Shown here in pieces: positions 5,536-33,470 of a stretch of 38,760 nucleotides of DNA; the stretch's first letter is position 1; every line of letters begins with the position of its first letter. Origin of the DNA: a virus. The position numbers and the translations under genes were made by a program. The stretch is from the IMG/VR virus record IMGVR_UViG_3300044699_000195, positions 1 to 38,760 of that record; one strand, given 5' to 3'. The notes under the pieces are model-generated. The model made no database searches. It was not told the origin of the DNA and saw nothing but the letters and a program-made list of their open reading frames with translations.

Positions 5536-5565
5536 TGTCTTACTAACCGGCGACAGCCTATCCCG

Positions 5566-6112: not shown

Positions 6113-6125
6113 CCCGAGGAATTGA

Positions 6126-6791: not shown

Positions 6792-6794
6792 GTC

Positions 6795-7704: not shown

Positions 7705-7712
7705 GGAGCACC

Positions 7713-7790
7713 ATGGCCAAGAAGACCAAGATCAATCCGATTCCGGTGCCGCCCAAGGGTAAGGGCACCAAGAAGGGCAAAGGCTGCTGA
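7713..7790 (+). CDS. 25-residue lysine-rich peptide
   Basis: ATG at 7713 follows GAGGAGC after the coat stop and encodes a 25-residue peptide, MAKKTKINPIPVPP then a Lys/Gly-rich end GKGTKKGKGC. The stop overlaps the next ATG (TGATG). It is too short to assign, but the ribosome site and tight coupling to both neighbours support expression. A basic peptide made at coat-protein levels could bind DNA or capsid. Confidence 0.5.
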   Translation: MAKKTKINPIPVPPKGKGTKKGKGC

Positions 7791-8675: not shown

Positions 8676-8685
8676 CGGAGATGGC

Positions 8686-9788: not shown

Positions 9789-9862
9789 TGGCATGGGACG
9801 CTTTGGCACCGACCGCTGCGGCTCGTGCCTCGCTAACCGGGGGCTCGACGTATGCCCGCTGA
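9788..9862 (+). CDS. 24-residue peptide between adaptor and tail hub
   Basis: ATG 9788 overlaps the adaptor stop (TGATG) and encodes MAWDALAPTAAARASLTGGS plus four residues. Its stop overlaps the start of the next gene at 9852. The size and coupling suit translational coupling as much as a functional peptide. Low confidence. Confidence 0.3.
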   Translation: MAWDALAPTAAARASLTGGSTYAR

Positions 9863-11465: not shown

Positions 11466-11472
11466 GAGCACC

Positions 11473-11977
11473 ATGAGCTTCAATCCCTGGAAGATGGTTA
11501 CCGGCAAGGCCGAGAACGTCGTCTCCCGAGTCCCTGTTGTGGGCGCGCTGCTCGGCGCCAAGACGGATTCAGAGAAGGCGCTCGAGGCCAAGCAGAAGCA
11601 GATCGCCGCGGAGGCCAGGAAGCAGCAGGAGCTGAACCAGCAGGCGCGCATGAACGCGCTCGGCCAGCAGATGCTCGCCTTCAATCCGCAGAACCAGATG
11701 ATGGCCCAGATGTTCGGCCCCGGCGCAGCGTTCCAGCCCGAGCAGCTCGCCCAGATGGCGCAGAACCCCATGAAGCCGCAGCTCGACCCGTCGCTCATCA
11801 ACTACCAGGGCGTCGACCGCAGAAGCGCGCCGAGGTGCAGGCGTTCATTGCCAAGAAGCAGGAGTTCGACCGGCAAGAAGCACAGCGCCGCGAAATGCTC
11901 ATGAACGGTCTGCAGGCGCCGGGACCGGGGCCCGCACCGATCCAGATGAGCGCCCGCAGGCGGCGAGGAAGTACTGA
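11473..11977 (+). CDS. Virion ejection-type protein, helical
   Basis: About 168 residues, starting MSFNPWKMVTGKAENVVSRV with a hydrophobic PVVGALLGA segment, then a coiled-coil KALEAKQKQIAAEARKQQEL and Gln/Met-rich text (QQMLAFNPQNQMMAQMFG). After a frame change near 11818 it continues AEVQAFIAKKQEFDRQEAQR and, after a second change near 11955, stops at 11975-11977. It is the first of three Gln-rich helical genes after the tail hub, the usual place of ejection (internal) proteins. No specific family is recognised. Confidence 0.55.
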
Positions 11978-11978
11978 G

Positions 11979-13637: not shown

Positions 13638-13640
13638 CGC

Positions 13641-16600: not shown

Positions 16601-18627
16601 GGCGACGGCAAGAACGCGAGCCGCTCGACTCGCTCAAGACGAAGCTCGGCAGCGTACCGGGGGATGCCCTGGAAGCGTTCGTGCTCGGGTACGACGATCT
16701 CGCCAACTTCGGCGCGGGGGAGAGCGGCGCGCGAATCGGGAGCGTTTGCGCCGAGCAAAGAGCCCGGCATGTTCCAGACGGAGGAAAGTAAAAAGCGCTG
16801 GGACGCTTCCACACAGGCCGCCCGGGACGACCCAGCCTCCGCCAGACCAAGAGCGTAGGCGGCATCCCAGCCCGCGGCGAGGGCTCCGAGCGCGAGCGCG
16901 ACACCATGCTCGATGAGGAGCACCCGATCGCTCACGCCCTCGGCAAGTGGCGGGCATCGCGCCGGGCCTGGTGGGAGGGCGCCGCCAAGGGACTGTACCG
17001 CGGCGCCAAGGCACTGGTGGGTGCCGCGTCGAGGCAGCAGAGCAGGCACCCAAGTCGCTCGCCGGTGGTCGCTGTCCAATGGCCTCTGGGACGCCAATCA
17101 CGGGGGGCGCCAAGGCCGCCGAGGCGGGGCGTCGTGAACAGCACCCTGCGCGGCGGGGGGCGGCAGCGACCGACCAGGCCGTGCGGGAAGGCATCCGGCG
17201 GGCTCACGGTACGCCGAACGGGCGACACGGGCACGACCCTGAAGGACGTGGGCGAGCATGCGGCGATGCGGCTGGCGGCGGCGCGGTGCTCACGCGCTCG
17301 GCACGGGCTTGCGTAAGGGGGCCTCGGCTTCGCCGAAAATGTGCGCACGGGCCCACGCTACGAGGGAGCGTCCGGGCGCCTCGAGTCGCACGGGCGTCGG
17401 GTCCGCGTCGGCAAGGGGGCACGTTGACCCGCAGATCGTGAAGGACGCGGCGCTCCGTGGCCGCAAGGAAGGCGGTCGCGATGCGCTCACGGTCCTCGCC
17501 AGCGACTGGACGAGCCGCTCGGCGACGTCGCTCGCGGCCGCGTGGCGAAGGCGGAGCAGGCAGAGGCCAGCACCGTCCGACGCACCGGGGGAACGCCGCA
17601 GGCGGGCCTACACGCTGCCCGCTCGCAACCTGGCCGAGACGAGCGTCGAGAAGCTGCGCGAGCTGACGAGCCCCGTGCCCAAGAGGGCCTGCCGGGCGTG
17701 GCCAAGCCCGGCAGCGAGAGCGAGGTCAAAGGCATCTTCAACAGAACATCGAAGGCGTCTCGACGCGCAAGACGCGCACGGCATTCCCCTCACGGCGGAC
17801 GAGGCCGGTCGTTTCTGTCGCCCGAATGGCAGGAGACGGGCAAGCTCGATTTCGAGAAGCTCGGCAAGAAGAAGGGGCCCCGCGTGTGGGTCCGCAACGC
17901 GCGCCGCCACGACTCGCGCACTTCGATACGGTCATCGAGGAGCTGGGCGCGAGCAAGGACAAGCAGGTCCAATCCCTGCAGGAGGCGGCCCGCAGGACCG
18001 CGCTGCGCGAGGCTACGGGCGACTACGGCGCCGCGCGTGACCAGCACGACAAGGACAGTCCGGCAAGGCGAAGAAGGGGTCAAGCGCATCGGCGCGAGAC
18101 AAGGACGACGGCGTCCGCGAAGCACGCGGTCGTGAGGGTGGGCAAGAGCAAGGGCAACGACAAGGCCACCTCGGCTGCTGCGCTCCGCAGCGCGCGGAAG
18201 CAAGGGGGGCCGGGCGCGCGAGCAGCTCCGTCGGCGCTCTTCGTCGCCGAGGACCTGGACGACCTGCGCCAAGTAAGGCAGCCCTGGGAGGTGACGGACG
18301 CGTTAACTCCCGCTCGCCTCCCCGCGCGGAGACCCCCTGGGGGCTGGGCGCGCACTCAGGCCGTGCTGGCGCACCGCTCTACCCACTTGCATGACGCGCA
18401 TCATCACGAGCGCTTCGGCACCCGGCAAGGCAGCGGCATGCCACGCCGCATGATCGCCGCCCTCGCGACGCGGGGCGCCGAACGTAAGGACGCGAAAGCT
18501 GCGCAAAGAGTCGGAAAGTCGGCCGGGCGCCCGCGGGGCGACCGCACTCGTGCAACCAAGCCGCACACGCCACCCGGCGCATCCCCCGCGGCGTCCTCGC
18601 ACCGCGGCAGAAGGAGAGCTGCAAATG
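13641..18627 (+). CDS. Giant ejection protein with lytic transglycosylase domain, C-terminus heavily frame-disrupted
   Basis: An intact frame of about 700 residues runs from ATG 13641 to roughly 15760, then continues in changing frames to about 18620, giving about 1650 residues. The N-terminus is coiled coil (QRKQLKLAREQFEETKRRNA). Residues near 600-730 form a lysozyme-like transglycosylase: ALERAAGDHGLDPDKMRRVM, then PESKGDGNAKNPGSSASGII with the catalytic Glu in ESKG and the SASG-I-Q turn. The later part has YSEYMHKKAALEQYRAQYPD, VIVYDAPLSKVREDLANNPA and a Gly/Ala-rich stretch GIAPGLVGGAAKGLYRGAKAL that could insert in membrane. Ejected transglycosylases (as in T7 gp16) open peptidoglycan at infection. 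Frame changes beyond 15760 come every 50-150 bases, so the C-terminus is only partly readable and could comprise more than one gene. Confidence 0.7.
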
Positions 18628-19077
18628 AGCGGCCTCGCAAAGTAACCCGCATCACCCTTCAGGCCCAGCAGATCCGCCGACGGCACGGGCCTGCCCGCCG
18701 CCGGCTGAGGTCGGTCGTGTGCGTGCCAACTCGGTCACCGCGATGGGCGCAGTGCCGTCAACCCTGCAGGAACGCGCCGGACCACGTTCTACGTTCTCAG
18801 TTAGCAGACCTCACATCCACAGAGGTCACCAACGCCCCCGGCAACATCAGCGTCACGGCGCAGTACAGCATCGACGGTGGCGCCAACTGGGTGGAGTTCT
18901 ACGCCTCCACGACGAACGAGCCAGTGGGCGACTCGACGACGTTCACCGATGAAATCTTCATCGGCCCCCTACGCGGATGTCCGGGTGAAGTTCAACAACG
19001 GGGCTCTGCGCCAAGTCGCGCCCTTCAACGTCAACATGAGCCTCGACTCTGAGGACCGCACCTCAGCGGGAGTGTAA
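18624..19077 (+). CDS. Small virion protein, frame-disrupted
   Basis: ATG 18624 follows AAGGAG by 8 bases. The reconstructed protein is about 150 residues: MSGLAK, then VTRITLQAQQIRR, RVRANSVTAMGAVPSTLQER, ADLTSTEVTNAPGNISVTAQ, IDGGANWVEFYASTTNEPVG and FNVNMSLDSEDRTSAGV. Beta-sandwich-like strands suggest a tail or fibre-associated domain. Frames change near 18642, 18700, 18785 and 18972. Its stop overlaps the next ATG. No family is recognised. Confidence 0.55.
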
Positions 19078-19872
19078 TGGGCGGCGCGCGCGGCAGCTTC
19101 AAGGGCAGTCTGGCCAACCAGATTCTGCAGTCGGGCGTGGTCGCCGCGTGGTTCCGTGTGGCCGACGCCAGGGACGCGGGTGCGGGCGGGCCCTTCACGC
19201 TGCCCGACGTGTTGTCCACGAACGCGGCGACCACGAGCATCGCCGCGCGCAAGCCGACCCTGGCCTCGAGTGCCAACGGCCTGCCCATTCTCACTTGCAA
19301 CGCCTCGGCGTTGCAGGCGCCGCTGTCTACGCCGATCAACAGCGCCACGAAATGGGGCTTTGGCGCGTGGATGCGAGTGACGACCGCGGCAGGCAACCCG
19401 GTGCCCGTGAGCATCGACAGCGCTGGCGGCGGCGGGGCGTCCACCCGCAAGCTCATCATCCAGCGCTTCGTGGGTGACAACATCGCTGCGTTTCGATACC
19501 CCAACGACGGCACGACGCGGAGGCCCCTCCACCATGTGGGTGACCAACACGTGGGCGTTTTGCACGTGGGAGATGTCACTCGACACGGGCGAAGCGGAGA
19601 CCGTGCGGGTGGTTGCCAGCCGGGACGGCGCGCTCCAGACGTGCGCGTACGCCGACAACAACGGCACGCCAGGCACCTTTGCGTCGAGCATGCAGGTCCC
19701 GACCGGGTCCATGAACTTGTTCGCGCAGAACGCGAGTACCGGCGGCAACGGCTGGGTGGGTGACATCGGTCCCAACATCTACATTTTCGGTTCACGCATG
19801 GCCGGAGCGACCGAAGGGCTGCTCACCCCCGCGGCGCGCGCACTACTCACCTCATTCGAGGCACCCACCTGA
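19077..19872 (+). CDS. Concanavalin A/LamG-like fibre-associated protein
   Basis: About 265 residues with one frame change near 19528. Features include ILQSGVVAAWFRVADARDAG, ANGLPILTCNASALQAPLST, KWGFGAWMRVTTAAGNPVPV, then WVTNTWAFCTWEMSLDTGEA, and GWVGDIGPNIYIFGSRMAGA before ALLTSFEAPT. Asn/Gly-rich strands with aromatic positions and the late 'GWVGDIGPNIYIF' pattern are typical of jelly-roll carbohydrate-binding (LamG/concanavalin-like) domains used in phage fibres. ATG 19077 overlaps the previous stop (TAATG). Role in glycan binding is inferred. Confidence 0.55.
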
Positions 19873-20045
19873 TGGCATCACGACGCAAGAAGTTTCGGCC
19901 GACCATCAAGACCCGCTCCTCTGCGCAGGTTTTCAACGAGTTCATCAAAGACCTGCTGCGCGGCGCCATTCAGGCAACCAGGCTGGTCGTGACCGGCGGC
20001 ACCGCGAACCGCCCCGAGCTCTCCTACGACGACCCGAACGGATGA
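19872..20045 (+). CDS. Small basic virion-operon protein (57 aa)
   Basis: An intact 57-residue protein, MASRRKKFRPTIKTRSSAQV, then FNEFIKDLLRGAIQATRLVV and TANRPELSYDDPNG. Basic N-terminus and one amphipathic helix. ATG 19872 overlaps the previous stop. It lies among fibre genes and is too small to identify; a chaperone or structural-adaptor role is possible. Confidence 0.6.
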   Translation: MASRRKKFRPTIKTRSSAQVFNEFIKDLLRGAIQATRLVVTGGTANRPELSYDDPNG

Positions 20046-20049
20046 CACC

Positions 20050-20490
20050 ATGACACTCGCCCTCTCCGTCACTGCCAGCAACGCCCTGCTCGACGGCTTC
20101 GAGACGTTCATGGTCTCGGGCACGGGCCAGGCGACGCTCACCGTCTACCAGACGAACACCGCGCTCTGCGTCTTCAACCTCGGCGCCTCCAGCACGGGCA
20201 CGCCCTTCGGCACGGCAGGCGGGCGAGCGCTCTCGCTCAGCTCCACGCTCTCGGCGCCGGTAGCCAACACGGGCACGGCGGTAGCGGGCACGGCCAACCG
20301 CTTCATCATCGTCAACCAGAACGCAGCCACTGCGCTGACCGGCACCATCAGCGCAGTGGGCGGCGGCGGAGACATCGAGACACCAAGTCTCACCGTCACC
20401 GCTGCAGCTGCCCAGGCGCTCAATGCGTTCGTCGTCCGGCAGGACGCAACCGGTCTGCTCAGCATCGAAGGGAGCCTCACTCTCGTATGA
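20050..20490 (+). CDS. Beta-rich fibre-type structural protein
   Basis: An intact 146-residue protein starting MTLALSVTASNALLDGFETF. It is Ala/Thr/Gly/Val-rich with successive short strands (QATLTVYQTNTALCVFNLGA, FIIVNQNAATALTGTISAVG) and no charged clusters, as in trimeric fibre or baseplate-like beta domains. Its stop overlaps the next ATG. Repeated Ala/Thr strand text also appears in the gene at 20658, suggesting related domains. Confidence 0.55.
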   Translation: MTLALSVTASNALLDGFETFMVSGTGQATLTVYQTNTALCVFNLGASSTGTPFGTAGGRALSLSSTLSAPVANTGTAVAGTANRFIIVNQNAATALTGTISAVGGGGDIETPSLTVTAAAAQALNAFVVRQDATGLLSIEGSLTLV

Positions 20491-20654
20491 ACTACAACCA
20501 AGCCTCCATGCCCGCGCCCGTCGTCGCCGCGGTGTTTCACGTGGAACCTCACCCGGACCCGACCGTGCGCCAGCTCATCGCGGAGATTGAGCGCCTGCGC
20601 CTCGAGAACGAGCGCCTGACGGCGGAGCTGTACGACCTAGGAAAGGGACCCTGA
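20487..20654 (+). CDS. Small leucine-zipper-like protein (55 aa)
   Basis: A 55-residue protein whose C-terminal half is a regular coiled coil, VRQLIAEIERLRLENERLTA then ELYDLGKGP. The stop of the preceding gene overlaps the ATG (ATGA). The zipper suggests dimer or trimer formation and a role in fibre assembly, but there is no direct evidence. Confidence 0.55.
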   Translation: MNYNQASMPAPVVAAVFHVEPHPDPTVRQLIAEIERLRLENERLTAELYDLGKGP

Positions 20655-20657
20655 CCA

Positions 20658-21042
20658 ATGGCCCTCACTCTCGGCAACCCGTCAGCCTCGTTCCCCATCG
20701 CCACCGCCGCGCGCAACGCGCAGGCGGACGCCTTCACCACGCTCATCGCCACGGGCGGCGGCACGGCGACACTGCTCCTGCGCAACAGCACCACCACGCT
20801 GGTCACGTTCAACCCTCAATAATACCCCCTTCGGGGCAGCCTCGACCGGCGCCATCACGCTAGCCGGCGTCACCATCAGCGCCGTCGCCTCGGCGGGCTC
20901 CGCCACCGCGGTCGACAACTACCAAATCAAGGACCGCGGCGGGACAGTGCAGTGGGGCGGCGTTGTCACCGGCAGCGACACCATCACGAGTGGCCAGACC
21001 TGTAATTTAACTTCACTCGTCATCACCTGGCCCGCATCGTGA
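20658..21042 (+). CDS. Beta-rich structural protein with frame change
   Basis: About 128 residues. It starts MALTLGNPSASFPIATAARN and, after a frame change near 20812, continues NNTPFGAASTGAITLAGVTI, DNYQIKDRGGTVQWGGVVTG and TWPAS to TGA at 21040-21042. The composition (Thr, Ala, Gly, Val) and Ala/Thr strands resemble the gene at 20050. Probably a fibre or tail-associated domain; function unassigned. Confidence 0.5.
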
Positions 21043-21050
21043 GCTGAGCC

Positions 21051-21941
21051 ATGGCTGCATTCGTCAGCGTCACCACGGGCGCCGCGTCGCGCTCGGTCAC
21101 GGTCGCCGCTGGCACCGATCGCATTCTGGTTGCGGTCGCGCTCTACACGTCCACGCAGTCCGCGCAGTCGGCGACCTACAACGGTGTCGCGATGTCGGTG
21201 GCCAACACGGACAACGGCTTCGTCCAAGTCTTCTACATGCTGAGCCCCCGGTGGGCACGGCAACGCTCGCCGTCACGGGCTCGTCCGTCGACACCGTGGT
21301 GGCCGCCCACTATACGGGCGTCGGCTCGTTTCAGAGCGGGCAGCAAGCGAGCGCGGCAAGCGCGAGCTTCTCCCCCAACACGGGCGGGGTCATCGTCTTC
21401 GGCATGGAGGCGGTCTCGACGACCCACACTCCGGTCGCCAACACCAACGAGCGCTATGACTCGGGTGGCGGGTACTACGCCGATCGCATCGTCACGGGCG
21501 CAGGCGCCGTCACCGTCGGGGTGTCGACCGCGACCTCCCCGACTACGCCGGGGCCATCTTCCTCGACGCCGGGGTCAATGCGAGCGGCACCCCCGCGGCT
21601 CCCGCCCCCACCGTCAGCGGCGCGGCCAACATCGTGGTCGCCTCGAGCGGCACGCCGAGCGCCCCGGCACCCACGGCGAGCGGCGGGGCCAACGTCGCGG
21701 TCGTCAGCGTGGCGGGCACCCGAGTGCCCCCCACCCCACGGCCGCAGGCGCCGCCGTCTCCATCATCAGCGTGAGCGGCTCGGTCTCGGCGCCCCACCCG
21801 GCAGCAGTCGGCGAATCGATCGGGGCGAGCCACCCGCACTCGGGGGTCACGGCTCACGGTGCCCAGAGCGGCGTCACCGTGCGCGAACCCTTTGCCCGCG
21901 TCAGCGGCAGCCGAGCTCGCGGCGCAGTCACGGAGGAATGA
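21051..21941 (+). CDS. Ala/Pro-repeat fibre protein, frame-disrupted
   Basis: About 295 residues. The N-terminal domain reads MAAFVSVTTGAASRSVTVAA and LVAVALYTSTQSAQSATYNG, then TATLAVTGSSVDTVVAAHYT, GVIVFGMEAVSTTHTPVANT. The C-terminal part is low-complexity with repeats of the type S-G-x-x-x-AP-x-P-T-x-x-G-x-AN-[IV]-x-V (about 21580-21760), then HPHSGVTAHGAQSGVTVREP. Frames change near 21245, 21540 and 21725. The repeat block suggests a flexible shaft or linker. It sits before the major fibre; role inferred. Confidence 0.5.
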   Translation: MAAFVSVTTGAASRSVTVAAGTDRILVAVALYTSTQSAQSATYNGVAMSVANTDNGFVQVFYMLSPRWARQRSPSRARPSTPWWPPTIRASARFRAGSKRARQARASPPTRAGSSSSAWRRSRRPTLRSPTPTSAMTRVAGTTPIASSRAQAPSPSGCRPRPPRLRRGHLPRRRGQCERHPRGSRPHRQRRGQHRGRLERHAERPGTHGERRGQRRGRQRGGHPSAPHPTAAGAAVSIISVSGSVSAPHPAAVGESIGASHPHSGVTAHGAQSGVTVREPFARVSGSRARGAVTEE

Positions 21942-22281
21942 ATGGCCCACATCGGACAAGACCTCACGTTCTCGGTCGTCTTCACCAACTCGAGCGACAT
22001 CGCCACCGACCCGACCACGATTCGGTTCCTTTTGCGTTGAGGGCATCGACGGCACCGAGCTCGAGTGGCTCTACAACGCCGCGCCCGTCTCGGGCACCCA
22101 CTACCCCGTCGGCGCCAACCCCATCGTCAAGGACAGCACCGGCACCTATCACGTGGTATGGGTGTCGCGCAAAGCCGAGAGGCACACGGGCTTCTGGGCA
22201 GGGTCCGGCACCGTGAACCAATCGAGTCAGACCACCGCCTTTGTGCGGCACTCGGAAGTGGCGGCCATCGATGGCGTGTAA
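21942..22281 (+). CDS. Ig-like or tail-associated small protein
   Basis: About 112 residues: MAHIGQDLTFSVVFTNSSDI, then, after a frame change near 22030, VEGIDGTELEWLYNAAPVSG, IVKDSTGTYHVVWVSRKAER and WAGSGTVNQSSQTTAFVRHS. The strand order with Asp-Ser-Thr-Gly-Thr-Tyr-His turn is typical of immunoglobulin-like domains on phage tails. It overlaps the next gene by 11 bases. Confidence 0.5.
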
Positions 22282-24240
22282 CGATCGGCAACTCACTGAA
22301 GCACAACGACAGGCGGGCTTTGGCCAGCAGCGCTCGGGCGTCAACCGCGCTATCCGCCCCTTCAGCGGCAGCCAGACGCTCGAGAACCTGATCGACTACG
22401 TCAACCGCGAGCTCGGCCCGGCCCTGCGCGCGACCCGCGACGCCTGCAACGACGTCTTCCTCCAGGTCGCCGACAACGCGCCGAGCGCCAACCCCCTGGC
22501 GTTCTACTTCTCGACCAGCACCGCGGCAGCCGACCCCACCGTCGGGCGCATGCGCCTGAACCAGGCCGTTCAGAACACGGCGACCGTCATCCGCGTGTCA
22601 GAGAGTAACGGGCGCCTACAGAGCGTCCAGCCCTGGCTCGACGTGATGAGCGGGGGCCCGACGACTCCGCTCGGCACGCTGACGATGGTGGACGCCATCA
22701 ACCCGAGCCGCTTCCTGCGCTTCGACCTCAACACGATGACGGACCAGGGGCGTATTGGGACCTCGGCGTCACCATCATCGAGTCGAGCGACGCCAACCCC
22801 TTCGTCGAGGACGAGCCGGTGGTCATCGGCTTCATCGCGGGCGTCTCCGCCGCGGGCAGCACCATCCCCGTGGCAGCGCTCAGCCCCATTGCAAACGACA
22901 CCTTTGTCGGCAACGTGTCAGGCGCCACAGCCGCGCCGAGCGCCGTCAACCTGAGCACTCTCGCGGGCGCCGGCCTCAACTTCGCAGCGCATACGCTCGA
23001 CGTCAATGGCTCGACCAGCATCACGGTGGACGAGCGACCAGGTGCAGCGCGCGGCCCTCACCGGCGAGGTTACCGCGGGCGCCAATGCCAACGCGACGAC
23101 CGTCACGCGCTCGACCAACTTCCAGACCGCGCCGTGGACCGGCAGTCACTCCTTCGGGGCAGGCGTCGCGGTAACGGGAACCAACGCGCACGCGCAATGG
23201 AGCTCCCAGCAGGACAACTTCGCGCTCGGCGCCGTGGCCATTCTCCGCGGCACGCAGGCCGGCGACCAGAGCCTGACCGGCATGGTACCCGCGTTTGACG
23301 GCCAGCTCTGCATCATCAAGAGCTCGGACAGTGGCGACGTGCTGAGCTTGCCGCACGCCAGCGGCTCGAGCTCGGCAGCAAACCAGTTCGACAATCCGCG
23401 CGACGGCACCGTCACGATCGACCCGGGCGGAGCCGTGCTCGCCTACTATGATCCATCTCTCACCAAGTGGTGCCCCATCCTGCCGACGCTCGGGTCGGGG
23501 CGCCTCATCGCAAGGCACAGTCTCAACGGAGCCGACTCCAGCTACTCCATCACGCCCAACGCTGAGACTACCTGGTTGCGCGTCAGGGCGCAGGGCGGAG
23601 GCGGAGGCGGAGGCGGAGCAGACGCTGACTCAGCGGAAGCTTGCGCGGGGGCGGGTGGCGGGCGGGCGCCTGCTTCGAATCCATTATACCAATCGTCTCG
23701 GGCAACATCACCGGCGCAGTCGGCGCGGGAGGCAGCGGCGGCAGCAACACCGGAGGCAACGGCAGCAACGGCGGAGACACGACCTTCATCTACAACGGCA
23801 CGACCATCACGGCGGGCTTCGGCTTCGGCGGAGCGGGCATGACGGTGGGGGCCTCGGATGTGGCCAATGCCTTCGAGCTCTCGGCGCCCGGACAGGGCGG
23901 CTCGCTCTCGGCAATCCCCACGGGCTCCATTGGTGCAGACGGGGGCGATGGGCACGCGGGTATCGCTTTCGGCCCGTTCGAGCCCGTAGCTACCAAGTCA
24001 GCACTGGGTGGCCACGGAGGCGCGTCGTTTCATGGCGGCTCCGCCCAGGGCGGCCGTGTCGTGGGCACGGCCGCCGGCTCGAACGGAACGAATGGCAAAG
24101 CTACGGGCTCCGGCGGGAGCGGCGGCGCCCGCATCGCGACCGCAGCGTCAACGGGCGCAACCGGCGGCGCGGGCCAGGCCGGGTGCTTGCTCATCGAGGA
24201 ATGGTCGGGCCCCGTGCCCACTCTGGCGACGATCAGCTAA
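22271..24240 (+). CDS. Tail fibre with glycine-rich tip
   Basis: About 655 residues when frames are joined (changes near 22745, 23030 and 23645). The N-terminal anchoring part has LENLIDYVNRELGPALRATR. A shaft-like middle carries NDTFVGNVSGATAAPSAVNL with STLAGAGLNFAAHTLDVN, a common phage fibre unit, then SLTGMVPAFDGQLCIIKSSD. The C-terminal domain starts WLRVRAQGGGGGGGGADADS and continues with Gly-rich stretches (AGGSGGSNTGGNGSNGG, GGAGMTVG, GGSGGARI) and ends with LLIEEWSGPVPTLATIS. Gly-rich tips with polyglycine motifs are known receptor-binding tips of phage fibres. It is the last plus-strand virion gene. Confidence 0.7.
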
Positions 24241-26273: not shown

Positions 26274-26591
26274 GTGATGCCCATCAACAGCCGAGCCAAG
26301 GGCGCCAGCTACGAGCGCGAGGTCGGGCAACAGCTGGGCCTGGTGCGTCAGCTCGACCAGTGCCGCGACGGGGGCGGCGACCTCGAGCACCCAGCGCTCG
26401 CGATCGAATGCAAGCGCCGGGCTCGCGTGGTCAATGTGCCCAAGGCCATGGCGCAGGCCACGGCGAGCGCCAGGGGTCGGGTGCCGGTGGTGATTCACCG
26501 GGTCGACCGCGCCGAGAGCCTCGTGACCATGAAGCTCTCGGATTGGCTGGCGCTCTACGAGCAGCACTGGCGGCTCACTCCTCCGACTTGA
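26274..26591 (+). CDS. PDDEXK-type nuclease, Holliday-junction-resolvase-like
   Basis: About 105 residues. The start is GTG 26274 or ATG 26277. The N-terminal SRAKGASYEREVGQQLG is the K/R-G-x-x-x-E-R/E helix seen in archaeal-type resolvases and related phage nucleases. GGGDLEHPALAIECKRRARV is the active-site hairpin: D, then E-x-K with spacing typical of the PD-(D/E)XK fold. The tail has PVVIHRVDRAESLVTMKLSD. Such small nucleases resolve DNA junctions before packaging. It follows the lysis genes, at the plus/minus strand boundary. Confidence 0.7.
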   Translation: MMPINSRAKGASYEREVGQQLGLVRQLDQCRDGGGDLEHPALAIECKRRARVVNVPKAMAQATASARGRVPVVIHRVDRAESLVTMKLSDWLALYEQHWRLTPPT

Positions 26592-26805
26592 GCGGCGGAC
26601 CCTTGTCCCAGTCGGGCGGCAGCAGTCGCTCGCTCACCACCTCGACGGCGTCTCTATTGTCCGCGTCCCAGTCGTCCGAGCCGCAGAAGAGCCAGCCCCA
26701 TCGGTCCATGTAGTCCTGTGCGTACTCGGCCACGTGGGGCTCACTGCTACCGGTGCGCACCCAGTAGTACCCGGGCTGGCGCTCCTTGATGGTCACCCCT
26801 CTCAC
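26575..26805 (-). CDS. Small early-region protein, GYYWVR type
   Basis: A 76-residue minus-strand protein, MRGVTIKERQPGYYWVRTGS onwards, then AEYAQDYMDRWGWLFCGSDD and a C-terminal acidic and basic mix. The GYYWVR start and Trp-rich middle resemble small phage early proteins. It overlaps the end of the plus-strand nuclease by 17 bases, tail to tail. Its own start overlaps the RecT-like gene stop. Function unknown. Confidence 0.55.
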   Translation of the reverse strand: MRGVTIKERQPGYYWVRTGSSEPHVAEYAQDYMDRWGWLFCGSDDWDADNRDAVEVVSERLLPPDWDKGPPLKSEE

Positions 26806-27674
26806 GCTGCCTCCAGCTCTTCCTGGCTGTACCCCATCTCTTCGGGGCAGTACATGCCGAGCGTGGCGCCGGGCCAGAGCAGGCGCGCGAGCTTGGATCC
26901 CGCCGTCTTCATGAGCATGTCTTGCGGGCGCTTCTCCCAGTTGCCGGGGTTGCCGTACTTGTCCTTCTTGAACACCAGCGTCTTCCCGGTCCGGTCGGGC
27001 ATCCCTAGGGCCTCCCTCGCCTCATCGATGGTGTAGGAGTAGTCCACGTGGGTCGGGTGCTTCTTGTGCTTGCCCCGCCACACCACCTTGGTCGGGCCAA
27101 TCTCGATGGGCATCAGGTATTCGAAGTTCACATCGCGCTCCGCCAGCGCACGGATGAGGTCGGCGCTAGCAACCGGCTTGCCCTCGACCATGTGATGGCC
27201 GGCAAGCGCGGTCGTCATGCCGATGCCGAGCTCTTTGCCCCGAGCGATGACGCTGAACACCGCCTGCTCGGTTTTGAATTGCGGGTAAACCCCGCCATCG
27301 AAGAGCCACATGCTCACCGTCTTGGCGGCCTTCAGGTCGAGCGGCTGTAGGTCCTTGGTGACCAGGCCGTACTGAGATTCGCTGTACTGCGGCAGGGTGA
27401 GGAGCGCATGAGAGGGAGAGTGCCGGGGCACCACCACCGACTCGCCCGCCTTGTCGCCTGGCTCGTTGGAGACGGTGTCGTTCTCTGCCTGCTGCTCCCG
27501 CTCCCGGTCGTACTCCCGCTCGAGCAGCTCGTCGTCCTTGGCGGCCACCTGCTTCAGGTCGGGCAGCTTCTCCTGGTAGAGGCGGGCCGCCTCGTCGAGC
27601 ACTTCCTCGTCCATGCTGCGCAGCGGAGCGATGGGCTCACAGTTGGAGAGCAGCGCCTGGGTGTCGAGCGGCAC
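26802..27674 (-). CDS. RecT-like single-strand annealing protein
   Basis: Encoded on the minus strand; GTG start at 27674 in a 290-residue frame. The first ~95 residues are acidic and helical (DEEVLDEAARLYQEKLPDLK, ELLEREYDREREQQAENDTV). From about 110 comes the annealase domain: SMWLFDGGVYPQFKTEQAVF, ARGKELGIGMTTALAGHHMV, KPVASADLIRALAERDVNFE, then WEKRPQDMLMKTAGSKLARL and WPGATLGMYCPEEMGYSQ. The order G-x-x-L-G-[IL]-x-x-x-x-AL, then W-x-K-x-P-x-DML-x-x, then LG-x-Y-x-PEEM is the RecT-family signature. The N-terminal part continues the exonuclease text, so the two may be fused. Confidence 0.7.
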   Translation of the reverse strand: MPLDTQALLSNCEPIAPLRSMDEEVLDEAARLYQEKLPDLKQVAAKDDELLEREYDREREQQAENDTVSNEPGDKAGESVVVPRHSPSHALLTLPQYSESQYGLVTKDLQPLDLKAAKTVSMWLFDGGVYPQFKTEQAVFSVIARGKELGIGMTTALAGHHMVEGKPVASADLIRALAERDVNFEYLMPIEIGPTKVVWRGKHKKHPTHVDYSYTIDEAREALGMPDRTGKTLVFKKDKYGNPGNWEKRPQDMLMKTAGSKLARLLWPGATLGMYCPEEMGYSQEELEAA

Positions 27675-28446
27675 GTTGGTTATCGAGCGTCGCCAGCTTG
27701 AGCGACATCACCAGGCTCTCCCAGTTGGAGGCGAGCGACTTGATCTTGGCGTTCAGCTTGCTGTCTTGGGTTGCCGCGCCGGTGGCCAGGCCCGCCGCGA
27801 GCAGCTCGAGGGAGGGGTACTTGTTGACCAAGCCCGCCGCCGTCTTCGGGCCAATGTCTGGCACGCCGGGGATGTTGTCCGACGTGTCGCCGACGAGCCC
27901 TTGGTAGAGCGGGATGGTACCCGGCGCGACGCCAAACTTCTTCCACACCGCCGCGATGTCCCGCACTTCCCAATCCTTGGCGCCGACCGGGGGGATGTAC
28001 TGCTTGACGTGCTCGGTGATGCACTGCGCGCAGTCCTTGTCCGTGCCCACGATGCGCACGTCGTCACACCACTCGCTGTAACTCTTGGCGAGCGTGGCGA
28101 TCACGTCGTCGGCTTCGTAGCCCTCGGCAAAGCCCACGGCATAGCCGCGTTTGCCAATCTCTGCCCAGAGCCAGCGCTTCTGCGCGGCCTCTTCGGGCTC
28201 GGCCTTCGGGCGGTTCGCCTTGTACTCGGGGAAGAGAGCGAGGCGCTTGCTGTAGGGCGGGGCGTCGCGGCAGATGATGACGTGGTCGACGCCGCTCTTC
28301 AGATCCTCGATATCCCTGAGCGTGGCGATGGCCGCTGCGTTCTTCTCGCCGAGCGGGATGGTGTGCCACCTCTTTGCGAACAAGTAGCTGATATCGATGA
28401 GCGCGATGCTTTGGGGAGTGGGCGGGAGGGTGAGGGGCTGGGTCAT
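27637..28446 (-). CDS. 5'-3' exonuclease (Pol I N-terminal/flap type)
   Basis: Minus-strand gene from ATG 28446, MTQPLTLPPTPQSIALIDISY. Asp18 in IALIDISYLF is the first metal ligand. RDAPPYSKRLALFPEYKANR is the arch motif with the R-x-x-x-x-x-YK-x-N-R pattern. EADDVIATLAKSYSEW and IVGTDKDCAQCI are two acidic metal-binding segments. VGDTSDNIPGVPDIGPKTAA is the helix-hairpin-helix region. The frame stops at 27637, but the end SLKLATLDN is followed, in the next frame, by VPLDTQALLSNCEPIAPL, which matches this family's C-terminus (LATI...DVPL). One base is probably extra near 27680, so the protein reads into the RecT-like frame. It degrades 5' ends or flaps during replication or recombination. 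Confidence 0.85.
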   Translation of the reverse strand: MTQPLTLPPTPQSIALIDISYLFAKRWHTIPLGEKNAAAIATLRDIEDLKSGVDHVIICRDAPPYSKRLALFPEYKANRPKAEPEEAAQKRWLWAEIGKRGYAVGFAEGYEADDVIATLAKSYSEWCDDVRIVGTDKDCAQCITEHVKQYIPPVGAKDWEVRDIAAVWKKFGVAPGTIPLYQGLVGDTSDNIPGVPDIGPKTAAGLVNKYPSLELLAAGLATGAATQDSKLNAKIKSLASNWESLVMSLKLATLDNQRAARHPGAALQL

Positions 28447-28661
28447 TTGTTTGCTGCTTTCTTCCGTGTCGTGAGCACGCAGTAGATGGGATTGCCGGTG
28501 TCTCGTGAGAGAATCTCGGCGTCTTTGAGTGTGGACACCGTGTCGTCGCCCACCCGAAACTCCCATCGGGAGTATCGGATGATGCGGCCGGCGTTGTCGT
28601 TTGCTGCAGATGTCCGCGGTGACCCGCGGTAGAGGCGATAGGGAATTGGCTTAGGGGTCAA
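28443..28661 (-). CDS. Small early protein (72 aa)
   Basis: Minus-strand gene starting with TTG at 28661, preceded by GGAG five bases upstream, which decides the start. It encodes LTPKPIPYRLYRGSPRTSAA, a basic N-terminus, then SRWEFRVGDDTVSTLKDAEI and a Lys-rich end. The stop overlaps the exonuclease ATG (ATGA). Function unknown; likely a replication-region accessory. Confidence 0.55.
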   Translation of the reverse strand: MTPKPIPYRLYRGSPRTSAANDNAGRIIRYSRWEFRVGDDTVSTLKDAEILSRDTGNPIYCVLTTRKKAANK

Positions 28662-28854
28662 ACTCGACTCCAGTCAATGTACTACATCGTTGAACATGTT
28701 CAAGGCGTGATGTTGGTTCAGTGTCCCGCGGTGGGTCATCGAACGGGTATAGAAACCAGCCATGGCTCGGGTTCCAAGGGTCCGGCTGCTGCGGGGTGCC
28801 CCCGTCGCGGCACTGGTTTCTGCGCGGCGAGGCGCAGGGGCGGTTATGGCTCAT
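28651..28854 (-). CDS. Small early protein (67 aa), low complexity
   Basis: A minus-strand 67-residue frame, MSHNRPCASPRRNQCRDGGT then DPWNPSHGWFLYPFDDPPRD and a charged end. It overlaps both neighbours by about 10 bases, the packing expected here. The Pro/Arg-rich start gives little structure. Reading-frame support is moderate and the function unknown. Confidence 0.4.
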   Translation of the reverse strand: MSHNRPCASPRRNQCRDGGTPQQPDPWNPSHGWFLYPFDDPPRDTEPTSRLEHVQRCSTLTGVEFDP

Positions 28855-29017
28855 CTTCCTCGACGGGAGGCAGGTTGCGCAGCGCGTATCGGCTGACGAT
28901 CCCCTTCTTCTGCCCCTTGCTGCGACTGCGGTTTACGTCTTGTTGGCTGAACCGAAAGCACCGCCTCGGCTCGTCTTTGGGTGGCTCGCACCACTCAGGT
29001 GTCGTTGGCTGGCTCAT
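28844..29017 (-). CDS. Small early protein (57 aa)
   Basis: Minus strand from ATG 29017 with AGGGAG upstream. It encodes MSQPTTPEWCEPPKDEPRRC, then FRFSQQDVNRSRSKGQKKGI and a C-terminal acidic end. Its start overlaps the end of the methyltransferase gene. No recognised domain. Confidence 0.45.
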   Translation of the reverse strand: MSQPTTPEWCEPPKDEPRRCFRFSQQDVNRSRSKGQKKGIVSRYALRNLPPVEEDEP

Positions 29018-29606
29018 TGCGATAGCTCTCCCTTCTGTCCCAGATGACGATGACGATGCCGAACGGTGGATTGCGGCTGGTCCGGTTGGTGATGGCCGCG
29101 CCTCGGTTGCGGAAGCAGCGGCGCCCGGCGAGAAACCGCGTCTCGACGAGAAAGTTGGCGCAGCGGTAATCACGGTAGGGCTCGATGTAGCGCTGCCAGT
29201 AGGGCTGCTCGCAGCGGTTCGCCGGCAAGAGCATCACGACGGTGGCGCCGCAGTAGGTCGCTTTCTTCACCCAGGGCTCGAGGTCGCTAAAGGGCGGGTT
29301 GACCCAGACCCGCTCTCCGGGCCCCCACTCGTGCGCCAGGCCATCGAAGCCGAGCGCGTCCGTATCGCCGACAAACTCCTCGGGGAAGATGCTGAGCTGC
29401 CGAGCGATATAGAGCGGGCTCGGGCCGAGCGTGTAGTAGCGCCGGCACTTGGCGTTGTGACGGGAGGCAGCCGCGTCGAGCGTGAAGTGAAACTCTTCGT
29501 TCAGCGGATCGAACACGTCCGGCGGCGTCTCGCGGTCGTCGACTGAGTCCAGCGCACCCTTGCCCTTGCGGTGGTTCGGGTGGTTCTTCGGGACCATGGC
29601 CAGCAT
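28995..29606 (-). CDS. DNA N6-adenine methyltransferase (phage Dam type)
   Basis: Minus-strand gene; ATG 29606 is chosen because GGAGGAACCCTG precedes it. The protein is about 203 residues. Motifs: RETPPDVFDPLNEEFHFTLD and AAASRHNAKCRRYYT, the cofactor-binding start of the phage Dam family; then GERVWVNPPFSDLEPWVKKA, where NPPF is the catalytic motif; and VVMLLPANRCEQPYWQRYIE. It methylates adenine in DNA and may protect phage DNA from host restriction. It is intact and lies between the small genes and the initiator. Family assignment is strong, the target site is unknown. Confidence 0.85.
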   Translation of the reverse strand: MLAMVPKNHPNHRKGKGALDSVDDRETPPDVFDPLNEEFHFTLDAAASRHNAKCRRYYTLGPSPLYIARQLSIFPEEFVGDTDALGFDGLAHEWGPGERVWVNPPFSDLEPWVKKATYCGATVVMLLPANRCEQPYWQRYIEPYRDYRCANFLVETRFLAGRRCFRNRGAAITNRTSRNPPFGIVIVIWDRRESYRNEPANDT

Positions 29607-29824
29607 CAGGGTTCCTCCGCCGGCTTGCGGCACTCGGCCTCGAGCGCTTCCACGCGCTCCATCGCCCGGGACCAGTCTTGGAAAGCCTGGTGATATCCCC
29701 AGGCATTGAAGATGTTGTGGGCAATGCTGAGGTTGCCCGGGTCCCTCTCCCAAGCTTCTTTGCGGGCCTCTGCCAGCCGTTGGGCGTCAGCACGCGCTCT
29801 CTCGAGTGCTACGCGGCGGTTCAC
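29606..29824 (-). CDS. Helical small protein before the methyltransferase
   Basis: Minus strand from GTG 29824, VNRRVALERARADAQRLAEA, then WERDPGNLSIAHNIFNAWGY and QAFQDWSRAMERVEALEAEC. Mainly helical, about 72 residues. GTG overlaps the initiator stop (GTGA) and its stop overlaps the methyltransferase ATG. Function unknown. Confidence 0.5.
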   Translation of the reverse strand: MNRRVALERARADAQRLAEARKEAWERDPGNLSIAHNIFNAWGYHQAFQDWSRAMERVEALEAECRKPAEEP

Positions 29825-30897
29825 GCTGCCCTGCCTTTGTTGGCCTTGGCGCGCTTGCCGAGCCACTTGGCGAACGCCTTGTCGGCCTCGAAGCGAGTGA
29901 GCGGCTTGCCCTCCCCGATGGCGATGGCTCGCCACTCCCGCGCCAAGGGCTCAGCGTCACCGAGGCCTGCCCGGTCACAGAAGTTGGAGTGGGCCACGGT
30001 GAGGTAGCGAGGGTCGAAGTCCACGAGCTCGGGCGGCTCCTCGCCGGGGCGTCGGTAGCTCTGACCTCGAGGCTTCGCAGCAGCAGCGGCAGCCTTGGCG
30101 CGGTCGGTCTCTGACCACGTGCGCCACTTACCGAAGAAGCTGCGAACGTAGTTGTCGAGCTCGCCCTCGAGCACTCCGCGCGCTCCGCCGATGGGGCCGC
30201 TCCTGAGGCTCAGGATTCGCTCGTCGAGATTGCCGACGCCTGCCATCGTCGCGTCGTCACGGAGCGCTTGTGAGGGCAGCCAGGTGGCAGGAAACTTGTG
30301 ATGCGTGGCAGGCAGCGTCGGCATCACCGGTGCGTCGAACGTCCCGGCAACCCCAACGTACGGTGCGGGGGTTGGCACGCCTCGTGCTCTTTCTAGAAGA
30401 TCCGGATCCGCTCCGTACTTTGTAGAGTTTGTAAGTACAGGATCAGGATCATCTAACGCGGGCGCGCGCGAGGCCGGGACATCGTTTTGCGTAACGTTTG
30501 GTAAGGCTAGCGTAACACTTGGTGGAGCCTCAGTGTCGTTGGCGACACGTGTGCGATAGCTCTTCATGTACTGGCGATTGCGCGCGCGCTGACGCTCGAC
30601 AGCGACGAGCTCGCGCTGCTCCTTGAAGCCAACCACGCGCCAGCCCCTCGGGACCCGCTCGAGGATTTGAACGGGCTCGGTATCGGGGTCCGGTTCGGTG
30701 AGCTCCTCGAGCGCCGCGGTGGCCGCCTCGAGCGTCACGTTGGCCCCGATGGCTACGCCTGCGACCGACGCGCAGACAAAGCCCTCGGGGTCAGCGCGGA
30801 GCTGAAACCAGAGCCACACGACTCTGGTGCTGGGTGCCATCGCCCAGAGGCGGCTGGCGAGAACGTCTTGGAAGATGCAGGTGTACTGATGTCGCAT
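29821..30897 (-). CDS. Phage replication initiator / replisome organiser (winged-helix N-terminus)
   Basis: Minus-strand intact gene, start ATG 30897 with AAGGAGG 10 bases upstream. The N-terminus MRHQYTCIFQDVLASRLWAM, STRVVWLWFQLRADPEGFVC, SVAGVAIGANVTLEAATAAL, EPDPDTE and GWRVVGFKEQRE is the winged-helix domain of phage replication initiators that read 'A-x-x-x-R-x-x-W-L-x-L'. A linker follows, then a C-terminal basic region (LERARGVPTPAPYVG, WRTWSETDRAKAAAAAAKPR, RFEADKAFAKWLGKRAKANK). About 358 residues. It heads the minus-strand replication genes. Confidence 0.65.
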   Translation of the reverse strand: MRHQYTCIFQDVLASRLWAMAPSTRVVWLWFQLRADPEGFVCASVAGVAIGANVTLEAATAALEELTEPDPDTEPVQILERVPRGWRVVGFKEQRELVAVERQRARNRQYMKSYRTRVANDTEAPPSVTLALPNVTQNDVPASRAPALDDPDPVLTNSTKYGADPDLLERARGVPTPAPYVGVAGTFDAPVMPTLPATHHKFPATWLPSQALRDDATMAGVGNLDERILSLRSGPIGGARGVLEGELDNYVRSFFGKWRTWSETDRAKAAAAAAKPRGQSYRRPGEEPPELVDFDPRYLTVAHSNFCDRAGLGDAEPLAREWRAIAIGEGKPLTRFEADKAFAKWLGKRAKANKGRAA

Positions 30898-30976
30898 GTT
30901 GTGGGGCCCTCCTTGGCCCCGCTCTGACGCCGTCCATGGCGCCGTGATCACCTAAAGGAACGTAAGCGCGCGCACG

Positions 30977-32654
30977 TCAGCGACGACGCCTGCGTGCGTC
31001 TGAGAGCTTGTGGACGGGTGCGAGACGCAGCGGCGCGTTGATGATCACCCGAATCTGATCGGCGCGTTCCCAGTCGCCCTCGAGCACTGCCTGAGCAGCG
31101 GCGGCGAGCAGGGATTCACGAGAGCTTGAGTTCTGTCCCAATGTCTGGGATAGAACCCACTCGCCAGGGCTCTCTAGCGCTCCCTCAGGTGTTGAATCCA
31201 CCTGAGTTTGTGCAGGTTCGAGAGCAGAGCCTTCATCTACGGAACCGAAGGTCACTCGTTCGAATCGAGTCGGGCGCGCAAGTAGTTTCGCAGAGTTACC
31301 GAGACCCAGGCCCCGTCGAGGTGGGGGTTTTGACCCAGTCGCTGGGACAGAACCCCCAGACGGCGGGATTGCGCCCGGCAACGCCGCCGCCGGCACCCCC
31401 ACCAGAATGCGCTTCATGTAATGCTTGTTCCCCGTCGCCGCCTGCGTGTGCCCGAGAATCGCGATGCGCTGATCGTCGGTCACCCCTGCCTCCACCAGGG
31501 CCGCGTTCAGATCCGCGCGCAGCCCGTGGAACGTCAGGCGACGGGTCGTGTCGGTGTCCGTCTGAAAGGCGCAGAACTTCTTGTCGGGCTGGGCAGGGTC
31601 GAAGCCCGGCAAGGGCGAGTAGATCTGCTCCTTCCACACCGCCCGCCGGAACGCCTTGGCGTAGCTCGTGCCCCGTCCCTTGCGGCCCCCCACCGTGCCC
31701 CTTGCCGCTCGATGACCTGTCCGCCCTTCAGCTTCATGGGCGTCGTCACCGCGTTGCGCAAGAGCGGGAAGATGGGGCCGCTCGTCGGGCAGCCCTGGCT
31801 CTGCCAGTACTCGCACGCAAAGGCGGGTCGGTACTGCTCGTGCACCGTGTGCACACGCGTGCTCGTAGTTCTTCGTCTTGCTCTTCTGCTTCCCCACCCG
31901 TTGTCCTACCTGCCCGTCCGTCTTCGGGCGGCGCACTTTCATCGTGGCGAAGCCCACGAGGTCCACATGGCTCCAGTCGCCCGCATGCCCGTCGCTCGTC
32001 CGCTGCCCACCCACGCACGGCAGAGCAGATGTTCATGTCGATGCGGGCTCGTGAAGCCGCGCCGCGTCTGAAACGTGATCATCTGCGCGTCGCTCAGTGC
32101 ATCCGCTCGCGCGTGTCGACCGTCGCCTCTCTCGGGCAACGCCAGCTCCTTGGCGGGGTTCATCTTCAGCTCACCCTCACGTACCAGCTTGGAGAGAATG
32201 ACGCTGATGTCGCTCCGCAGGTTGTGAGTCGTCCGGAAGCGAGGCGCCCTGCTCTGCCATACGGTCGAGCACAGCCAACGATGTGGCTCGGCTCGAGCAA
32301 GCCCACACGGCACCTGACCGATGATGGGCAGCGCATACTTGCGCAAGCGGGTCGCGCCGGTACTGGACCAGCCTTCTTCTCGGCGTCGGCCTGAGCCTTG
32401 GCAAGCCTTCTCACTCTAGAGATCGCGCTCGGCTTCTTCAGTGAAGGAGCGCTCGCCGCGCTGGCCGCGGGCGGCGTACCCGTGCGACCCCACGCCTCGA
32501 ATCATCTTGCGAGCGAGCTCGCGATCGGTCGTGCCGAGTGGCAACCAACCAGACCACTTGGTCGCGCCGCTCGGCCCATACGCGGCCGACCCATCCCTTG
32601 CCGCTCGTGAAGCGCGGGCCCTCGGAGCGGAAACTCCTTCTTCGGGCGAGCCAT
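30977..32654 (-). CDS. Tyrosine integrase, reading frame spans attP; N-terminal two thirds frame-disrupted
   Basis: Minus-strand site-specific recombinase, ATG 32654 overlapping the excisionase-like stop (TGATG). Fragments in changing frames give the N-terminal SAM-like domain (RTTHNLRSDISVILSKLVRE, ALSDAQMITFQTRRGF), then GMRAGDWSHVDLVGFATMKV with Arg I. From about 31570 the frame is continuous: LTFHGLRADLNAALVEAGVT (His-x-x-Arg), GHTQAATGNKHYMKRIL (His and nucleophile Tyr) and an unusual C-terminus of about 180 residues to 30977, ending KLSDARRRRR. This frame crosses the tRNA-derived attP at 31237-31280. Frame changes occur several times between 31640 and 32650, so the exact N-terminus is uncertain. 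Confidence 0.8.
31130..31156 (+). repeat. 27-bp imperfect palindrome, copy A, left of attP
   Basis: GTTCTGTCCCA (31130-31140), 5-nt spacer, TGGGATAGAAC (31146-31156): 11-bp arms with one G-T pair. It is closely matched by copy B at 31327-31353, and the two flank the attP core. Candidate arm-type or accessory binding sites. Confidence 0.6.
31236..31280 (+). other. attP-like core: 3' half of a tRNA-Arg
   Basis: On the plus strand the sequence CTACGGAACCGAAGG (31237-31251), then ACTCG TTCGAAT CGAGT (31254-31270) and CGGGCGCG form an anticodon loop (anticodon ACG), perfect T-arm and acceptor 3' strand of an arginine tRNA. No matching acceptor 5' strand (GCGCCCG) lies upstream and the 5' anticodon strand does not pair, so identity begins at the anticodon loop. 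That is the usual attP core for a tyrosine integrase, here beside the integrase active site. The integrated target would be a host tRNA-Arg gene. Confidence 0.7.
31323..31357 (+). repeat. 27-bp imperfect palindrome, copy B, within a longer hairpin right of attP
   Basis: GTTTTGACCCA (31327-31337), 5-nt spacer, TGGGACAGAAC (31343-31353) repeats copy A with 19 of 22 arm bases identical and the same spacer length. Flanking GGGGG/CCCCC extends it to a 15-pair hairpin with one mismatch (31323-31357). It may also act as a structured element at the integrase 3' part. Confidence 0.6.
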
Positions 32655-32893
32655 CAGGCAACCCCTGCGTCACGCAGCCACTCGAGCACCTTGGCGGGCT
32701 CGAAGCGAACGATGGTTGCCGACCTTCTTGCTCGGCAGCCCCTGTTTACGCAAGTGGTCCACGTGCGTGGGTGAGCAACTGAGCAACTGAGCGAGCCCCT
32801 GCTTGTCGACCAGCATCGGGGTCGTGCTGCGCAAGTAGAGCCGCGGCGCTCACCGCGCGGTTGACCAGGCTCTCTAAACTCGGCCCGTGTCAT
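32654..32893 (-). CDS. Excisionase-like HTH protein
   Basis: Minus-strand gene of about 80 residues; ATG 32893 begins MTRAEFRE, then in changing frames SLVNRAVSAAALL and MLVDKQGLAQLLSCSPTHVD, HLRKQGLPSKKVGN and IVRFEPAKVLEWLRDAGVA. 'VDKQGLAQLLSCSPTHVDHLRKQGLP' is the MerR/excisionase-type HTH (HTH_17), used by phage Xis and DNA-bending proteins. Its stop overlaps the integrase ATG (TGATG), so the pair is translationally coupled and probably works together in recombination. Confidence 0.65.
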   Translation of the reverse strand: MTRAEFREPGQPRGERRGSTCAARPRCWSTSRGSLSCSVAHPRTWTTCVNRGCRARRSATIVRFEPAKVLEWLRDAGVA

Positions 32894-32942
32894 CGTAAAC
32901 TACGGGCCCATCGTTGTCATTGGCGGGCGCTCGCTCTGACAT
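32874..32942 (-). CDS. 22-residue peptide upstream of excisionase-like gene
   Basis: ATG 32942, MSERAPANDNDGPVVYDDTG then RV and stop TAG, overlapping the excisionase-like start. It could be a leader peptide coupling translation. Very short and unconfirmed. Confidence 0.25.
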   Translation of the reverse strand: MSERAPANDNDGPVVYDDTGRV

Positions 32943-33110
32943 CCGTCTTCTCTCTCCCTCAGGGGTGGGCCAGGTCTGGGTCCATCGCTGACCCGAGTCA
33001 ACGATGAACCCACCCGTTGCCGAAGGGGAGAGTATGGCTGTGTGGTCGCAAACGTGTCGATGTGTAACTGAATGCCACTTGCTTTTTTCCTGGGGTGTAG
33101 GTATGGGGGG

Positions 33111-33170
33111 CTGGAGTAACACTCCAGAGCAGGCCTAGAGCATTGCACGCGGCCTAGTGGACGGCTAGGC
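33111..33170. promoter_or_regulatory. Candidate operators in the divergent int/repressor control region
   Basis: Between the minus-strand integrase unit and the plus-strand repressor are two palindromes. CTGGAGT aac ACTCCAG (33111-33127, perfect 7-bp arms) and GCCTAG tggacgg CTAGGC (33152-33170, perfect 6-bp arms), with a further half-site GCCTAG at 33133-33138. These sit 8-65 bases before the repressor ATG, as expected of phage operators. No convincing promoter hexamers are visible in the same place, so the role is inferred from position. Confidence 0.5.
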
Positions 33171-33177
33171 TCACGGG

Positions 33178-33403
33178 ATGCCAGCCGGAAAACCGAACAA
33201 ACGAACTGACCACGAGCGAGAAGGAGGCGCTGCGCGCGTACCGCGGAGCACCTCGACAAGTACGGGGCGCCGCCGACGCTGCGCCAACTCGCGAATACCT
33301 CGGCATCGTGCACAGCGCGGCGCAGTACACGCTTCGTCGCCTGCATGAGAAAGGCTACATGCAGGAGAAGAGGGTCACGAGCACCCGCCTGATGCTGAGG
33401 TAG
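33178..33403 (+). CDS. LexA-type DNA-binding repressor, no peptidase domain
   Basis: Reconstructed from ATG 33178 with two or three frame changes (near 33213, 33242 and 33293): MPAGKPNKRT, then LTTSEKEALRAYREHLDKYG, APPTLRQLAEYLGIVHSAAQ, YTLRRLHEKGYMQEKRVTST, RLMLR and TAG at 33401-33403. The helix order and G-x-PPT-x-R-x-[IL]-A-x-x-LG plus L-x-x-L-x-x-KG[YL] are the LexA DNA-binding domain (winged helix). The Ala-Gly cleavage site and Ser/Lys peptidase are absent, so it cannot self-cleave like LexA or cI. It is divergent from integrase and next to palindromes, suggesting a lysogeny repressor. Confidence 0.65.
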
Positions 33404-33470
33404 CAAGGGGAAGAAGGCGCCGTTATGACCGGGTGCCGGCTGCTGCTCTTGGGCGCCCTGTTGCGGGCCC

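Follow-up and report, generated by a model that had tools for sequence, protein, structure and literature searches.

A putative single-chain exonuclease-annealase recombinase of phages, divided by one base in a metagenomic virus record

The stretch of DNA analysed here (the window) is the IMG/VR virus record IMGVR_UViG_3300044699_000195, with a length of 38,760 bases. Its minus strand carries two overlapping open reading frames, one for a 5′-3′ exonuclease (28446-27637) and one for a RecT-like protein (27674-26802), which are offset by one base at 27681 (Table 1). The exonuclease domain reads MTQPLTLPPTPQ... from the ATG at 28446, a start that is supported by the small upstream frame whose stop overlaps it, and its nominal frame continues out of register to 27637. 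The RecT frame terminates with a TGA about 15 residues past the annealing core and is without a C-terminal tail domain; judging by the overlap, the 76-residue frame that follows is probably translationally coupled to it. A 100-residue frame matching a rotavirus Pfam family was also noted, although the match is weak and was put down to chance.

Table 1. Features of the exonuclease-RecT locus in the window.
Feature	Position	Strand	Basis
FEN / Pol I-type 5′-3′ exonuclease domain (predicted)	27681..28446	-	Pfam, PDB relatives, FEN folds, acidic residues; ATG 28446
Frame break, one base extra relative to in-frame L002	27681..27682	-	Alignment and indel list
Nuclease C-terminal end (VPLDTQALL) and charged linker, in the RecT frame	27414..27674	-	Long helix then disordered stretch (model)
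RecT / Red-beta-type annealing core (predicted)	26802..27413	-	Pfam RecT, PHROG 4171 RecT-like, AF2 model, tail comparison
Small ORF, 76 aa, overlapping the RecT stop (GTGA)	26575..26805	-	Sequence; weak PHROG match only
Small ORF, 72 aa, stop overlapping the exonuclease ATG (ATGA)	28443..28661	-	Sequence
PD-(D/E)XK-like endonuclease adjoining the fusion, labelled RusA-like Holliday junction resolvase in PHROG	26274..26591	+	Pfam, PHROG

The exonuclease frame follows its family as far as ...SLKLATLDN, after which it departs from the family consensus (QRAARHPGAALQL, then a stop), and the missing C-terminus of the exonuclease family, VPLDTQALLS..., is found one base away in the RecT frame, which ends at 26802. 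The initial annotation had read both motifs in this way, and had proposed that one base corrected near 27680 would unite the frames into a chain of about 550 residues, in which a Pol I-type 5′ nuclease is fused to a RecT-like annealase. This proposal is borne out by a second contig, IMGVR_UViG_3300037477_000038 (L002), which is 99.5% identical to the window across 1.9 kb and whose junction is that of the window minus one base at 27681, giving a single open frame (LATLDTNVPLDTQALLS). From the ATG equivalent to 28446, the L002 chain comprises 547 residues with all three Pfam domains, and its 5_3_exonuc match extends over profile positions 1-85 of 97, compared with 1-79 in the window. Across the two halves the window and L002 differ by eight synonymous and no non-synonymous codon changes, and both reading frames are therefore genuine.

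The break at 27681 most probably represents an error or a variant of no consequence, because the window differs from L002 by about 200 small indels, mostly of one base (159 events in 5552-22914 and 36 in 28842-33429), which also split genes that are intact in L002, among them a 932-codon frame near 15756-18551 and the integrase gene (559 versus 351 codons). It may instead be a genuine recent mutation. Relative to the L002 contig, which is 98% identical, one-base indels are so dense at 15759-22914 and 31702-33429 that split genes in these regions are suspect. Two other explanations of the break deserve mention. In the first, the break is genuine, the window phage produces two separate proteins, and L002 is the exception. 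The sequence as given does hold the frames apart, and RecT has possible starts of its own, a GTG (27674) and an ATG; however, the C-terminal motif of the nuclease lies in the RecT frame, the codons of both halves have been conserved as described, the indels have broken other genes in the same manner, and ten further fused homologues are present in divergent phages, all of which makes this explanation very improbable. The second, programmed frameshifting that would yield a free nuclease together with the fusion, is improbable to a still greater degree: the two frames overlap at 27681, but the sequence there contains no classical slippery heptamer, and neither L002 nor any other member needs such a mechanism. 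The L002 gene does contain internal in-frame starts (an ATG at codon 278 and several GTGs), from which free RecT could also be made.

The nuclease half is assigned by several lines of evidence to the FEN / Pol I-type 5′-3′ exonucleases, and the corresponding activity is predicted for it. The first frame matches the Pfam families 5_3_exonuc_N (9.5e-23) and 5_3_exonuc (2.5e-18); the scores for PF02739 and PF01367 in the window (81.1 bits against 34.3, and 66.8 against 40, respectively) both exceed the curated cut-offs, and those of L002 are 78.9 and 73.8 bits. Its PDB relatives are Taq Pol I, ExoIX and T5 FEN, and the sequence families that it matches are Pol I, Xni and PRK14976. An AlphaFold model of this half adopts a FEN fold, with Z scores of 20-22 to ExoIX, T5 FEN, Mycobacterium smegmatis FEN and a plastid exonuclease (Foldseek/VIA), the closest solved folds being M. 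smegmatis FEN and plastid exonuclease 1 (6c33, 9l55/9l56). In the ten intact fused chains described below, nine acidic residues (D18, D61, E111, D113, D114, D136, D138, D187 and D190), which we take to be the metal-binding positions of the active site, are invariant, as are the YK..R residues.

The second frame matches Pfam RecT (1.9e-8) and PHROG 4171 (RecT-like). Its RecT score is 34.5 bits in the window against a threshold of 24; L093, another member, scores 30.8, and the divergent L009 falls below the threshold at 14.7. An AF2 model of this half (pLDDT 82) resembles Red-beta (7ujl) with an E-value of 5.2e-5 and a Z score of 9.1 over 142 residues, and RAD52 (Z 5.4), Listeria RecT (Z 5.2) and phage Sak score below Red-beta. 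The model thus points to a Red-beta-type annealing core, for which annealing is the predicted activity. What follows this core differs markedly between fused and free proteins. In the fused chains the stop always falls between -4 and +4 residues from where the core ends, whereas the tails of 110 free RecTs extend a median of 153 residues beyond it (quartiles 130-177), the shortest of these including frames cut by contig ends. A rank test of this difference gives a p value of 1.9e-7, which is overstated, as the fused rows form one clade; the difference therefore amounts to one evolutionary contrast. Lambda Red-beta can anneal without its C-terminal domain but requires it both to contact the exonuclease and to recombine dsDNA, so that the truncated protein still anneals while recombination is lost, and exonuclease/annealase pairs are not interchangeable, as mixed pairs fail (PMC5052646). 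Because this region of Red-beta recruits the exonuclease and the fused chains are without it, the covalent tether plausibly stands in for the lost recruiting region.

Profile scans identified L009 (3300046642_000534) and L093 (3300046723_000342) as single chains about 30% identical to L002, and a second scan with the RecT type of L009 and L093 added seven further fusions (L143, L144, L146, L148, L149, L150 and L152). Together with L002, these make ten distinct intact FEN-RecT chains in ten IMG/VR contigs besides the window. Of 157 RecT loci examined, ten lie within roughly 4 kb of a FEN gene, which is always in the same open frame as RecT; these ten loci represent nine distinct contigs (L009 and L141 are one and the same contig, and L140 is the contig of L093), and L002 provides the tenth chain. 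The initial annotation had called for a search for proteins with both domains, and held that relatives with two separate genes would speak against the fusion; no such locus was found among those with a FEN gene (0 apart, 10 in one frame). The chains are about 28-35% identical at the extremes, and all ten intact homologues share the junction motif in frame at the corresponding place. Between the halves lies a non-conserved linker of 52-99 residues, in most cases with an abundance of P, A, E, D, S and T; the L002 model shows it as a charged helix that gives way to a disordered stretch. Apart from the fusion, the window phage shares no protein with the L009 and L093 phages at an E-value below 1e-4, and thus the fusion gene sits in otherwise unrelated genomes. 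Every fused chain comes from a metagenomic contig and none from an isolate, and a chimeric assembly might accordingly have brought unrelated nuclease and RecT genes together. This is hardly credible, however, for independent contigs from different IMG datasets, 28-63% identical, that share a common architecture, a junction motif and a single RecT clade.

Several neighbours of the fused genes were observed in passing. The RusA-like endonuclease of the window (26274-26591, plus strand) is a possible junction resolvase within the recombination module of the fusion. Three different phages have DNA methyltransferase genes (Dam, N6/N4 and C5) in the vicinity of the fusion (window 28995-29753, minus strand; L149:5044-6156; L146:6063-7121). 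In L152, a QueC gene of the 7-deazaguanine pathway (2175-2843) and the fused gene overlap at the stop of the latter, and this phage may therefore have modified DNA.

In a RecT tree of 50 rows, the ten fused domains form one clade (support 98/93), and the fused FEN domains also group together in the best tree, though weakly supported (63/89); a single origin of the fusion is thus the simplest reading of these trees, less secure for the nuclease half. Earlier trees with only three fused rows had left the number of fusion events open, a point that the ten-row RecT tree settles better. Independent fusions had been considered, as the FEN of the window is no closer to that of L009 than to some Pol I FENs, but the trees disfavour them. 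After its origin, the fusion appears to have been retained while its RecT half was exchanged as a cartridge, because RecT has changed far more than FEN in two pairs of chains: L009 and L140 share 98% identity in FEN and 61% in RecT, and L143 and L152 share 87% and 63%, respectively. Between L009 and L093, divergence sets in sharply past the linker, where dS rises from 0.06 (linker) to 0.85 (RecT). The segments in which a RecT half has apparently been exchanged beside a near-identical nuclease and linker are L094:5001-6548 and L093:5001-6566 for L009/L093, with a second instance in L143/L152.

The free relatives of these RecTs have different partners. Most of those examined adjoin a separate exonuclease gene, usually of PD-(D/E)XK type, and the genes often found beside them are YqaJ (L142 and L166), DUF3799 (L048 and L088), DUF2800/PDDEXK_1 (L019, L026 and L147) or RNase_T (L010). 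YqaJ-, DUF3799- and DUF2800-type partners of phage RecT have also been described for Firmicutes phages (PMC8093625). Ten neighbours of the fused genes included none of these four nuclease types. The phage RecTs accompanied by YqaJ, DUF3799 or DUF2800 genes are the nearest free relatives of the window RecT, but they differ from the fused family in having a separate gene for a nuclease of unrelated fold and a RecT tail of typically 110-180 residues. In L010 (4983-5618), the free RecT is followed by a gene for an RNase_T-type exonuclease, which usually acts 3′-5′, in place of a 5′-3′ partner. The fused family resembles the SynExo pairs, lambda Red Exo/Bet and RecE/RecT of Rac, in that a 5′-3′ exonuclease is predicted to work with a RecT/Red-beta annealase. 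However, these pairs consist of two proteins, with a nuclease of PD-(D/E)XK or RecB type and contact via the C-terminal domain of the annealase, whereas the fused family has one chain, a FEN-type nuclease and no C-terminal tail; its ten intact members have neither separate adjacent genes nor an exonuclease of PD-(D/E)XK fold, by which two-component SynExo systems are recognised. The N-terminal domain is like the Pol I 5′ nuclease, ExoIX/Xni and T5 FEN in sequence, fold and the nine acidic residues, but those nucleases are free or joined to a polymerase rather than to an annealase, and M. smegmatis FEN and plastid exonuclease 1, its closest folds, are free-standing cellular enzymes.

We therefore regard the gene in the window, with a probability of roughly 0.7, as a frame-broken copy of a single-chain exonuclease-annealase recombinase, in which the tether would replace a recruiting tail. 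A feasible model is that the N-terminal FEN/Pol I-type nuclease would resect the 5′ strand at an end or gap of the phage DNA, and that the RecT core, tethered through a mostly disordered linker of about 50-100 residues, would be loaded on the exposed 3′ strand and pair it with a complementary strand. The tether would take over from the C-terminal region that serves free annealases in recruiting their exonuclease. The two activities, their coupling and their order are inferred. A broader reading, slightly favoured though less probable than the first, is that these chains constitute a new family of single-chain phage recombinases; a nuclease of FEN type would have taken the place of the PD-(D/E)XK partner as well as of the recruiting tail, and the family would have spread among unrelated phages while RecT cartridges were swapped next to a conserved nuclease and linker.

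Many Pol I-type 5′ nucleases act distributively and are specific for flaps, in contrast to lambda exonuclease, a processive resector. The main rival to resection accepts the same anatomy, and supposes that the nuclease acts after annealing, at a gap of the replication fork, where it would clear away a displaced 5′ flap or an RNA primer and so allow sealing by ligase, as a partner in gap filling and flap processing instead of end resection. This proposal constitutes the main uncertainty because many members of the FEN nuclease family prefer flaps, and the nuclease half belongs to the flap endonucleases, both by its nearest folds (ExoIX, M. smegmatis FEN and T5 FEN) and by its sequence families (Pol I, Xni and PRK14976). 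On the contrary, T5 FEN and T7 gp6, which belong to the same superfamily, also degrade duplex DNA 5′-3′, and the fused FEN is the only exonuclease partner seen, in the place occupied elsewhere by the resecting-type YqaJ, DUF3799 and DUF2800 nucleases. Flap trimming is thus the less likely role, though one to be taken seriously, and resection coupled to annealing is preferred.

In two-protein systems the contact between exonuclease and annealase is needed and specific, and its function is hard to isolate (PMC5052646); a natural chain with a tethered nuclease and no recruiting region would offer a direct test of whether physical linkage matters. The FEN-RecT chain further offers genome engineers a ready candidate, encoded by a single gene, for work with dsDNA donors. 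Both domains and their functional pairing were known already, and the single-chain fusion is apparently new: the open-access literature searched contained no report of a FEN-RecT or exonuclease-annealase fusion, although an earlier mention is possible, and no PHROG, Pfam or NCBIfam model was found to span both halves. Collections of 50,697 phages and of 72,556 plasmids contained no record that covered 80% of the L002, L009, L093 or L149 chains, each of which was compared with one or both collections, and a scan for close relatives with RecT alone or the whole chain as query returned only L002. A scan of genome contigs yielded one free RecT in a Planctomycetota MAG, with an adjoining DUF3799 gene. 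Searches of Planctomycetota genomes, first 99 and then 294, yielded matches to Pol I or FEN only, plus two free RecTs, one of which lies in a 523-residue frame without FEN, and this phylum is thus not identified as the host. The fused chains nevertheless define a family for searches of phage genomes, whose annotations may list such genes merely as "exonuclease" or "DNA polymerase I." The latter annotation is carried by a stand-alone FEN of 428 residues in Bacillus phage BalMu-1 (L133, 961-2247), the gene for which lies directly upstream of that for a Gam-like inhibitor of host nuclease.
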